A stretch of 64,000 nucleotides of DNA from Lachnospiraceae bacterium NK4A144 (GTDB lineage Bacteria; Bacillota; Clostridia; Lachnospirales; Lachnospiraceae). Under the pieces are notes generated by a model. The model did not search any database. It was given only the letters and a program-made list of their open reading frames with translations, and was not told the origin of the DNA. Position 1 is the first letter of the stretch. Each line of letters begins with the position of its first letter. Shown here piece by piece: positions 16,068 through 56,845 of the stretch. The stretch lies in assembly GCA_000424365.1 (NCBI GenBank), contig AUJT01000003.1, positions 62,001-126,000 on the forward strand. The letters are read 5' to 3'. The translations under genes and the position numbers were made by a program.

Positions 16068-16212
16068 GTTACTGTTCAGACGCAACCGGAGCACTACTCT
16101 GCGGAGGTTGCGACCAAGAAAGATGAAAAGCCATTGGATTTTGCCCATCGCCGGAGGCGATTCAATTGGCAAAATCCGTTACGTGAGCGAGCTGGAAGCG
16201 AGTGACAGTAAC
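16068..16212. mobile_element. Family A MITE-like element, copy A1 (145 bp)
   Basis: Ends GTTACTGT / ACAGTAAC. In reverse it matches the copies at 22123-22323 and 25388-25533, including the internal hairpin GGATTTTGCC / GGCAAAATCC with inner ATCGCC / GGCGAT. No matching target duplication is seen, so it is probably old. It encodes no protein but supplies the last codons and stop of the GIY-YIG gene. Confidence 0.85.
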
Positions 16213-20672: not shown

Positions 20673-22052
20673 TTAGATCAGTCCCTTTTTCTCAAGGATC
20701 TTATCTGCTACATATACACCACTTGCTGATGCGTGTGAAAGAGAATGCGTCACGCCGCTTCCGTCTCCTATAATGTAGAGACCCGGATAACGGGATTCGA
20801 GGTTATTATCCAGTTTAACCTCCATATTGTAAAACTTAACTTCTACACCATAAAGAAGTGTATCGTCATTTGCCATTCCGGGCGCGATCTTGTCGAGTGC
20901 ATAGATCATCTCGATGATACCGTCAAGTATACGCTTCGGAAGAACCAGGCTCAGATCTCCGGGAGTTGCATCCAGTGTAGGATGTACTGTTCCCTCATCT
21001 ATCCTCTTCTGATTGCTTCGTCTTCCTCTCTCAAGGTCTCCGAAACGCTGTACGATAACGCCGCCACCAAGCATATTTGACAATTTTGCAATACTCTCGC
21101 CGTATCCGTTACTGTCCTTAAAAGGCTCTGAGAAATGCTTTGCAACGAGGAGCGCAAAGTTTGTGTTCTCGGTCTTTTTACTCTGGTCCTCAAAGCTGTG
21201 ACCATTAACCGTTACGATACCGTTTGTATTTTCGTTAACGACTATTCCGTTAGGATTCATACAGAAAGTACGAACCCTATCTTCGAATTTCTTAGTCCTA
21301 TATACGATCTTTCCTTCGTAAAGCTCGTCAGTGATGTGTGAAAAGATCTCAGCCGGGATCTCCACACGTACACCTATATCCACACGATTTGAGCTTGTTT
21401 CGATATTCAGCTCTTTACATACTTCTTCCATCCACTTACTGCCGCTTCGTCCTACAGAAACGATACACTGATCGGCCTCAGCAGACTCATCGCCGTAGTA
21501 TACGCGGAAACCGGGATCAAGTGATTCGATCCTGGAAACCGGAGTTCTGAAATGGAAGTCTATCTTATCTTTCATCTCAGCGTACAGATTTTTTAATACA
21601 ACATAGTTTATATCCGTACCAAGATGACGAACCGATGCATCGAGAAGCGTCAGATGATTCTGCATACAGAGCTTCTTAAAGGATGTACCCGATGTAGAAT
21701 ACATCTTTGTGCCTTCTCCACCATGCTTCATATTGATATCATCCACATAGTGCATGAGTTCCAGTGCCTTATTTCTGCCTATATATTCATAAAGAGTTCC
21801 ACCAAAATCATTGGTGATGTTATATTTTCCGTCAGAAAATGCTCCTGCCCCGCCGAATCCATTCATGATAGAGCAGCTCTTGCAATGTATGCAGGACTTT
21901 ACCTTGTCTCCATCGATAGGACAATGGCGTGACTCCAGTTCTGTTCCCTCGTCAAAGATCGCGATCTTTAATCCGCTGCTTTTCTGAAGCAGTTCATATG
22001 CCGAGTATATTCCTCCCGGACCGGCTCCAATAATGATCACATCATACTTCAT
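20673..22052 (-). CDS. FAD-dependent dehydrogenase of the COG2509 type
   Basis: A 459-residue flavoprotein. The N-terminal dinucleotide-binding motif is IIIGAGPGGIYSAYEL. The cysteine block KSCIHCKSCSIMNGFGGAGA (about 53-75) is typical of the uncharacterised COG2509 group, and a C-terminal FAD contact is YIIGDGSGVTHSLSHA. The CxxCxxC arrangement could bind a metal or Fe-S cluster. The RBS is AGGAGG. Substrate unknown; it is monocistronic, bounded by a terminator and by repeat elements. Confidence 0.88.
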   Translation of the reverse strand: MKYDVIIIGAGPGGIYSAYELLQKSSGLKIAIFDEGTELESRHCPIDGDKVKSCIHCKSCSIMNGFGGAGAFSDGKYNITNDFGGTLYEYIGRNKALELMHYVDDINMKHGGEGTKMYSTSGTSFKKLCMQNHLTLLDASVRHLGTDINYVVLKNLYAEMKDKIDFHFRTPVSRIESLDPGFRVYYGDESAEADQCIVSVGRSGSKWMEEVCKELNIETSSNRVDIGVRVEIPAEIFSHITDELYEGKIVYRTKKFEDRVRTFCMNPNGIVVNENTNGIVTVNGHSFEDQSKKTENTNFALLVAKHFSEPFKDSNGYGESIAKLSNMLGGGVIVQRFGDLERGRRSNQKRIDEGTVHPTLDATPGDLSLVLPKRILDGIIEMIYALDKIAPGMANDDTLLYGVEVKFYNMEVKLDNNLESRYPGLYIIGDGSGVTHSLSHASASGVYVADKILEKKGLI

Positions 22053-22072
22053 TTAGATCCTCCTATTATAAG

Positions 22073-22107
22073 TGATGTAAGGGTCAAAAGTAAATTTTGC
22101 CCCTTAC
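22073..22107. repeat. Short family B derivative forming a hairpin
   Basis: TGATGTAAGGGTCAAAAG followed by TTTTGCCCCTTAC: GTAAGGG-CAAAA pairs with TTTTG-CCCTTAC. It sits 21 bp upstream of the FAD dehydrogenase start and abuts the larger element at 22108. Confidence 0.55.
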
Positions 22108-22473
22108 TGATGTCACGGATTGGTTACTGTTCACTCGCTTCCAGCTCGCTCACGTAACGGATTTTGCCAATTAAATCGCCTCCGGCGATGGGCAAAATCC
22201 AATGGCTTTTCATCTTTCTTGGTCGCAAACAGCTAAAGCATACACTCTCACTAAGCTCACATTCGTTCGCTAAGTGTTCGTAGCATCCGCAGCGTGGTGC
22301 TCCGGTTGCGTCTGAACAGTAACACGGATTGCTTCATTGCTACGCAATTCCCGCAATCCTAAAACACTCGCATTCCGCGTAATAACGCTACTTGCTCGTG
22401 TTTTGCGGGTCCCAAGGTCTCAATCCTCTTTGTGCAAGCACAATCGGATTTTGACCTTTTGACCCTGACATCA
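22108..22473. mobile_element. Family B element (157 bp) split by a family A insertion
   Basis: Ends TGATGTCA (22108-22115) and TGACATCA (22466-22473). Removing the 201-bp family A element and one 8-bp duplication leaves 157 bp, the same length as the intact copy at 56689-56845 and nearly identical to it. No protein is encoded; the right half can fold into a nested hairpin (GGTC, AATCC, TTGTGC arms). Confidence 0.9.
22123..22323. mobile_element. Family A MITE-like element, copy A2 (201 bp), with 8-bp target duplication
   Basis: Terminal inverted repeats GTTACTGTTCA / TGAACAGTAAC. Flanked by ACGGATTG on both sides (22115-22122 and 22324-22331); this octamer occurs once in the uninterrupted element at 56689-56845. 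Relative to the 145-bp copies it has about 55 extra internal bases with a CACTAAGCTC / CGCTAAGTG motif. Confidence 0.92.
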
Positions 22474-22937
22474 ACAGATTAATAAATGAGCCAACTTTTC
22501 AAAAGCTATTTACTTTACCATTAACAGTCTTTAAATACAAGAGATTTTATTGTTTTTTAATTTTTATCTGTGCATTTTTTTGAACATGCATACAATTTTT
22601 TCGCCTTAAAAAAATCTTAATGTATACATGGGTGTTTTCACAGAAAATTCACTTGAAAATTCATCTTGTATCAACTAAAATGCAAAGTACAGATAGCGAG
22701 AACGCTCACTATCTCCCCCTCATAAGCAGAGCCTGTAAGGTCTACCCCCTTACAGGCTCATCTCCTTTTAAACAAAACCCGTACGAGTAATCCTTCTCCT
22801 CTACCTTTTTCGGTTGTTTTCCACTTTGGCTTTAGTAAATCGCTATTTTTATCCGATAGATATTCTATACTTACCAAAAAACTTAAGAATAACGAAAGAT
22901 CAGTTTTTTGACACAATATTTTGGTATACTAATGGCT
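22474..22937. other. Long non-coding leader of the glucosaminidase gene
   Basis: No gene is visible. It is AT-rich with two hairpins: GATAG-GAG / CTC-CTATC (22692-22713) and a strong 12-bp stem at 22729-22759. A TCCGATAG box at 22852-22859 resembles a sigma-28 -10 element but the TAAA expected 15 bp upstream is only found at 12 bp. Confidence 0.5.
22729..22759 (+). terminator. Strong hairpin, possible terminator or leader attenuator
   Basis: GAGCCTGTAAGG pairs with CCTTACAGGCTC around a 7-nt loop; the tail ATCTCCTTTTAA is only moderately T-rich. No gene on the plus strand ends just upstream, so it could act in the leader of the glucosaminidase gene or end a small transcript from the repeat region. 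Confidence 0.6.
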
Positions 22938-25387: not shown

Positions 25388-25533
25388 GTTACTGTTCACT
25401 CGCTTCCAGCTCGCTCACGTAACGGATTTTGCCAATTAAATCGCCTCCGGCGATGGGCAAAATCTAATGGCTTTTCATCTTTCGTGGTCGTAAACTCCGC
25501 AGCGTAGTGCTCCGTTTACGTGTGAACTGTTAC
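25388..25533. mobile_element. Family A MITE-like element, copy A3 (146 bp), with 8-bp target duplication
   Basis: Begins GTTACTGTTCACTCGC and ends GTGAACTGTTAC; flanked by identical TAACACTC octamers (25380-25387 and 25534-25541). Same orientation as the 22123 copy and near-identical over the first 110 bp. Confidence 0.9.
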
Positions 25534-25644: not shown

Positions 25645-25717
25645 TGGGCTATCGCCAAGCGGTAAGGCAACGGACTCTGACTCCGTCACTTCGAAGGTTC
25701 GAATCCTTCTAGCCCAG
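25645..25717 (+). tRNA. tRNA-Gln (anticodon CTG)
   Basis: Acceptor stem TGGGCTA / TAGCCCA, D-arm GCCAAGCGGTAAGGC, anticodon arm ACGGA-CTCTGAC-TCCGT with CTG at 34-36, and TPsiC arm AAGGTTCGAATCCTT. The U1-A72 pair is typical of tRNA-Gln. CCA is not encoded. Confidence 0.95.
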
Positions 25718-27891: not shown

Positions 27892-27909
27892 GTTACAGTT
27901 CAGACGCAA
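27892..27909. repeat. Solo family A terminal fragment
   Basis: GTTACAGTTCAGACGCAA differs by one base from the family A right end (reverse). No second end is nearby. Confidence 0.45.
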
Positions 27910-43154: not shown

Positions 43155-43229
43155 TGATGTAAGGGTCCCAAGGTCTCAATCCTCTTTGTACAGGCACAAT
43201 CGGATTTTGACCTTTTGACCCTGACATCA
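43155..43229. mobile_element. Short family B element (75 bp) between fliD and fliS, with 5-bp duplication
   Basis: TGATGTAAGGGTC at the left and GACCCTGACATCA at the right enclose only the nested hairpin of family B (GGTC / GACC, AATCC / GGATT, TTGT / ACAA). It is flanked by TACTT on both sides (43150-43154 and 43230-43234). Confidence 0.8.
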
Positions 43230-56688: not shown

Positions 56689-56845
56689 TGATGTCACGGA
56701 TTGCTTCATTGCTACGCAATTCCCGCAATCCTAAAACACTCGCATTCCGCGTAATAACGCTACTTGCTCGTGTTTTGCGGTTCCCAAGGTCTCAATCCTC
56801 TTTGTGCAAGCACAATCGGATTTTGACCTTTTGACCCTGACATCA
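56689..56845. mobile_element. Intact family B element (157 bp)
   Basis: Begins TGATGTCACGGATTGC and ends TTGACCCTGACATCA. The flanks TTTTA (56684-56688) and TCTTA (56846-56850) match in 4 of 5 bases, a possible worn 5-bp duplication. It lies between glnN and the amidase gene and serves as the empty-site reference for the interrupted copy at 22108-22473. Confidence 0.88.

Follow-up and report, generated by a model that had tools for sequence, protein, structure and literature searches.

Clostridiales-1 RNA is catalogued in Rfam as RF01699. The 2010 report of Weinberg et al. (PMC2864571) rates it 'y', meaning that a biological RNA is probable, and 'n' as a cis-regulatory element. In the titles and opening abstract lines of open-licence literature, neither RF01699 nor Clostridiales-1 is called a MITE, and the words nested, Rfam, IS1182, IS4 and Clostridi are absent from a review of prokaryotic MITEs (PMC10969869). 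Here, we describe a locus at which this sequence, denoted B, encloses another short element, denoted A. Very probably, A and B are two unrelated MITEs of this Lachnospiraceae genus, one ancestral insertion placed A inside B at the octamer ACGGATTG, and the resulting composite was then moved as a unit by the ends of B, as a hybrid MITE. The ends, the duplications, the movement as a unit, the sister copies, the ISs with matching ends and the identity with RF01699 are all read directly from the sequence.

The window, a stretch of 64,000 nucleotides, corresponds to positions 62001-126000 of contig C3 of a draft genome (4.09 Mb, 68 contigs). The composite (22074..22472, plus strand, 399 bp) is bounded by the inverted ends of B, GATGTAAGGGTCAAAAG and CTTTTGACCCTGACATC. 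Within it, element A (22123..22323, plus strand, 201 bp, inverted ends GTTACTGTTCA and TGAACAGTAAC) lies between a left and a right copy of its 8-bp duplication ACGGATTG (22115..22122 and 22324..22331, both plus strand). The nesting proposed in the initial annotation is thus found letter for letter. The limits of B had to be revised. An empty site of 157 bp had been deduced, and the subtraction (366 − 209 = 157) holds for the coordinates used in that annotation, but B starts at 22074, where GATGTAAGGGTCAAAAG is the inverted match of CTTTTGACCCTGACATC, giving an element of 190 bp. The added part is a left extension (22074..22107, plus strand), also missing from the second B copy of the window, which had been taken as an intact empty site. 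That copy (56690..56844, plus strand, flanks ATTTTAT and ATCTTAT, 6 of 7 bases alike) is indeed uninterrupted and contains the octamer once, directly followed by CTTCATTGC, but it is a short form without the left extension rather than an intact B. The composite lies upstream of a FAD-dependent oxidoreductase gene (20673-22052, minus strand), with 21 bp between it and the start codon.

The left part of B, TGATGTCACGGATTG, occurs 59 times with at most one mismatch, versus 0 for the control. In most copies it is preceded by GATGTAAGGGTCAAAAGTAAATTTTGCCCCTTAC, so that these are longer than the unit first annotated. In the own genome, 60 rows yielded 45 distinct copies in which both ends and sufficient flanking sequence were available. 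The left extension is present in 37 of them and 8 were classed as short, including at least one with a diverged extension (L070). Allowing a slip of at most one base, a 7-bp duplication flanks 26 of the 37 extended copies (15 without slip), compared with 18 of 1332 mismatched pairs of flanks used as a control. The same duplication is seen at only 1 of the 8 copies classed as short. A 73-bp derivative in the window (43156..43228, plus strand) retains both ends and is flanked by the duplication ATACTTT. In congeneric genomes, the 7-bp duplication is found at 8 of 11 pairs of B ends, one of which belongs to an IS (L295), and the end pattern GATGTMAGGGTCAAAA is present in 22 of the 48 genomes of the genus. 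B therefore has the attributes of a MITE: it is short and non-coding, with inverted ends and numerous dispersed copies. A target duplication of fixed length, 7 bp and AT-rich, accompanies the extended form, though not 7 of the 8 short copies. Finally, its ends are common to a transposase-encoding IS, the L295 element of genome G029.

RF01699, the Clostridiales-1 RNA of Rfam, is the same sequence as B. Both B copies match the whole model on the minus strand, the uninterrupted one at 56689-56845 with 124.8 bits and the composite at 22317..22473 with 114 bits, where the gathering score is 48; in the composite, A cuts off the first helix. The family was found in 9 of the 20 loci examined, from the own genome and from G009, G027, G030, G032, G038, G041 and G047. 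The 11 loci without it include IS elements and short derivatives, and it is absent from all 16 loci taken from other IS4-like search matches. Outside these genomes, RF01699 occurs as three identical 188-bp copies on the Butyrivibrio fibrisolvens plasmid pNP243. All three have a 7-bp repeat at their edges, one of them weak because its flank is an AT run. It also occurs in two unannotated contigs from human faeces, one showing no visible duplication (L322) and the other cut (L325). A plasmid search with one RF01699 sequence of the G027 type found nothing. In these bacteria at least, RF01699 is a MITE, judged by its ends, copies and duplications.

This raises the matter of what the conserved fold represents. 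Pairing was evaluated on six diverged members, using a structure that was itself predicted from their alignment and is thereby favoured. Under these conditions, 24 of 49 pairs have changed on both sides, and 88.7% of cells are paired compared with 75.0% in shuffles, none of 500 shuffles reaching 88.7%. Pairing falls to 32-45% when the partner is slid by 1 to 3 columns. Changes affect both sides in 40 cells and one side in 7. Only 10 of 258 paired cells are G-U in these six members. With so few G-U pairs, the fold reads nearly alike on both strands. A palindrome in DNA would explain such a G-U-poor fold no less well than an RNA would, although six sequences do not decide between them. A possible, though tentative, reading is that RF01699 is no RNA family at all and that the covariation of its fold reflects the DNA itself. 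Palindromes would be kept perfect on both strands, hence few G-U pairs and double Watson-Crick changes, either by an IS1182-like transposase needing extruded hairpins or by hairpin-templated repair copying one arm to the other. If so, the same reasoning may extend to other orphan families of structured RNA, which might likewise be MITEs.

Conversely, B may be foremost a structured RNA whose function keeps the fold, mobility serving to spread a ready-made gene leader. The pairs changed on both sides speak for this, as does gene orientation. The left end of B corresponds to the 3' end of the RF01699 strand and faces gene starts more often than not, the left-hand neighbour reading away from B in 29 cases versus 10 (12 versus 19 on the right side, from crude open-frame gene calls). 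However, the scarcity of G-U pairs makes the fold about equal on the two strands, and deletion derivatives of 112 and 73 bp, devoid of most of the fold, still have target duplications at their flanks. We regard this second reading as rather unlikely.

Element A shows no match in Rfam (window 21900-22700, E up to 1). Its end 11-mer GTTACTGTTCA occurs 135 times genome-wide, versus 3 times for the reversed control, and copies fall into length classes of about 146 and 201 bp. We collected 64 distinct stand-alone copies of 95-210 bp, leaving out nested copies and other lengths. An exact 8-bp target duplication is found at 44 of these 64, a count slightly favoured by the choice of the best-repeat right end where several were possible, and at 54 if one mismatch is tolerated. 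Pairing the left flank of one copy with the right flank of another gives a match in 1 of 4032 cases. The octamers at the 44 exact duplications are all different, which excludes that the octamer belongs to the ends of A, and the base bias of these 44 targets is weak. A is thus, as first annotated, a non-coding mobile element with an 8-bp duplication. It also has the other marks of a MITE, being short with inverted ends and numerous dispersed copies, and shares its ends with transposase-encoding ISs, namely an IS piece of the own genome and elements of G032. Copy numbers are lower bounds, since several contigs end in or beside A, B or the IS4-like IS (in G000, for instance, C5, C6, C9, C11, C17, C28, C35 and C37).

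Further A sequences are seen in the window. A stand-alone copy of 146 bp (25388..25533, plus strand) has the 8-bp duplication TAACACTC; a tRNA gene (25645-25717, plus strand) lies about 110 bp past it. A 145-bp copy at 16068-16212, in reverse orientation, is without an exact 8-bp duplication (CCAAAAAG / AGTTTTTG). At 27892, the 16-base right end of A stands alone and is followed by unrelated sequence. Across copies, the left-hand neighbour is directed away from A in 34 cases versus 12, and the right-hand one in 20 versus 17, again from crude open-frame gene calls.

Copies of both families are abundant in the genome, and the composite itself is present in 4 of the 48 genomes of the genus. A search for the junction TGTCACGGATTGGTTACTGTTCA that tolerated 3 mismatches gave matches in 5 of these 48; the match in G023 was rejected as a composite, having 3 mismatches and no element around it. 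The 18 remaining loci are distributed as 11 in the own genome, 5 in G030, 1 in G039 and 1 in G009. An exact-junction scan of genome contigs returned Lachnospiraceae MC2017 (5), KH1P17 (1) and an uncultured Lachnospiraceae MAG (1), whose flanks agree with those of G030, G039 and G009, respectively. The composite junction was not found in viral contigs. Site and orientation are the same at all 18 loci, and every composite with a whole A has ACGGATTG on both sides (10/10). Composite sizes are 399, 344 (once 345) and 112 bp, and all three are represented in the own genome and in MC2017 (G030); the 399-bp form is also found in G009.

The composite behaves as a mobile unit. Four loci (L077, L093, L111 and L120) have no right end or flank and stand outside the 14 testable composites; L078, whose length of 229 includes an N run, was dropped from the sizes but retained in this count. 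Twelve of the 14 have their own outer 7-bp duplication (6 of 7 in the own genome and 6 of 7 in other genomes). Thus, a ready-made composite was spread by the ends of B. The two exceptions are L240, outside the own genome, and the window copy, which has no recognisable outer duplication (flanks TATTATAAGT / AACAGATTAA). Because of this lack, we can only infer the arrival of the window copy: it probably came as a ready-made composite, the insertion of A not having been made at the window locus.

The smallest form shows how a compact derivative may arise. The 9-bp direct repeat CGGATTTTG is present once within A (22158..22166, plus strand) and once within B (22445..22453, plus strand), 287 bp apart. 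Scripted removal of the interval between the repeats leaves 112 bases, and the five 112-bp copies, from three genomes, differ from this predicted product at 0, 2, 0, 0 and 0 of 112 positions. The chimera retains both ends of B and lacks the right end of A; it can therefore have moved only by B's ends. Four of its five copies have their own outer duplication.

Other combinations of the two elements were observed. In L176, a 145-bp A with duplication TAAAAATT lies inside a 46-bp derivative of B which has the outer duplication AACAAAA. Since the insertion site differs from that of the other nests, B has received A on at least two occasions. The initial statement that A is later than B hence stands for one ancestral event in the lineage but not for the two families. 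L175 starts as a B end and continues as A, joined near a common CAAAATCC, and represents a further A-B chimera. L080, where B stands beside an A-like piece, was rejected as evidence, having 47 bases at 85% identity with A on one side and nothing on the other.

Taken together, these observations lead us to propose the following course of events. A, of about 146 or 201 bp, would be moved in trans by an IS4-family transposase that duplicates 8 bp, and B, of 190 bp, by an IS1182-like transposase that duplicates 7 AT-rich bp. In an ancestor, A would have inserted into B at ACGGATTG, leaving the ends of B intact. Because these ends stayed intact, the B transposase could have kept moving the 399-bp (or 344-bp) composite as a unit in several species. 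Deletion between the 9-bp repeats of A and B would then have produced the 112-bp chimera, which kept both B ends and multiplied too.

Whether the nests at ACGGATTG trace to one insertion was considered in the light of the A sequences. Identity among nested A copies averages 97.9%, as against 90.7% between nested and stand-alone A. The nested copies do not form a closed group, since L144 and L159, which stand alone, share 99-100% identity with nested ones. A single insertion does not readily account for two loci, both at contig ends, the least dependable part of a draft assembly. In L111, the nested A is nearer to stand-alone copies than to the other nested ones, and L120 has, instead of A, the start of an IS4-like IS at this very site (ACAGATTG) of a B copy that has diverged. 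A single insertion nevertheless appears likelier, because the 112-bp chimera exists and the site is no special target.

These same two loci bear on the possibility that resident B copies received A and its IS at ACGGATTG in several independent insertions, the octamer at the foot of a hairpin being a favoured target. Repeated insertion would account for the IS4-like IS of L120 and for the other A subtype of L111, as well as for the use of one site and one orientation across 18 loci and for the occurrence of the 399- and 344-bp forms side by side. However, the target bias of A is weak, and the site in B scores only mid-profile (1.67, where the best other site in B reaches 4.64). L176 shows a separate A-into-B insertion elsewhere in B. 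Moreover, the chimera cannot arise by insertion of A, yet it is found at 5 loci in 3 genomes. We consider repeated insertion very improbable. The initial view that A entered a B copy at this very locus, prompted by the exact octamer and the uninterrupted copy in the same window and compatible with the lack of an outer duplication, is hardly tenable, as the junction recurs at 17 other loci, composites have outer duplications of their own and 399-bp composites exist in G030 and G009.

The single-nest explanation calls for two transposases acting in trans, and full-length transposons with matching ends, which the initial annotation had anticipated, exist in congeners for both A (G032) and B (G029); in the own genome, a partial one is found for A only. 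There, GTTACTGTTCACTCGCAATGTCATTTAGTTAAG adjoins the beginning of a reading frame truncated by contig ends, a candidate mover of A. Its 55 readable residues match no family model but show 45% identity, over 44 residues, with the protein of G032. Matches to this IS piece were obtained in 19 of 145 genomes, the own one included, several to its end alone. In G032, A-type ends with exact 8-bp duplications (AAATTATT and GCTGCTTA) delimit 2 of the 4 fetched elements, L223 (1944 bp) and L224 (1994 bp), with a reading frame of 457 codons. The L223 protein belongs to the IS4 family (NF033592, 161.7 bits for a cut-off of 115).

For B, the element at 335-2208 of L295 in G029 is 1874 bp long, has B-type ends, each forming its own small hairpin, and is flanked by the duplication ATATAAT. 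Its reading frame of 561 codons is related to IS1182 transposases. IS1182 is the best of 6 families for this protein (NF033551, 141.2 bits, E 4.6e-41), but the score stays below the cut-off of 270 bits and we call the element IS1182-like. Homologues (E up to 1e-20) exist in 4 of the 48 genomes, the own one included. A homologue in G038, L298, has ends that read AGGGTGTCAAAAG. The own-genome homologue is 48% identical and has other ends, and this element (L201/L296) was accordingly rejected as the mover of B. No IS with the ends of B was found in the own genome's assembly. In the own genome, twenty stretches adjoining solitary B ends contained no mover, and the one long end pair there (L303) belongs to separate B copies. 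The own IS1380 and IS1634 transposases (L198, L199) were unsupported as partners, no good match to A or B ends being found there. Congeners contain several MITE subfamilies with B-type ends and different interiors (L265, L266, L270, L290 and others), which suggests that one kind of transposase may move many B-ended subfamilies. From these shared ends, we infer that IS4-family and IS1182-like transposases act in trans on A and B, respectively.

The larger point beyond the nest is that B is RF01699. An orphan Rfam family gains an origin, with a general warning that covariation, the usual argument for RNA structure, also occurs in a mobile DNA element. The nest itself allows the birth of a mobile family to be followed through sister copies, from nesting to joint movement by the outer ends and to deletion between short repeats, yielding a compact chimera in several species.

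Compared with Rfam RF01699, B gives a whole-model match, as it also does in seven other genomes of the genus, but the RF01699 sequence makes up only the larger part of a mobile element of 190 bp that has inverted ends and duplicates 7 bp; the model omits its left 33 bp. Elements of G032 with the ends of A carry an IS4-family transposase and have 8-bp duplications, whereas A is gene-free and has about 16 end bases in common with the own genome's IS. The G029 element with the ends of B matches IS1182 best (E 4.6e-41) and, at 141 of 270 bits, is an outlying relative of that family; B shares its ends only. Bacterial MITEs, of which MITEAba12 (PMC6382973) is an example, have in common with A and B a short gene-free body, inverted ends, a target duplication and many copies. 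In contrast to these, two families with different movers are fused here, and the fusion itself multiplies.
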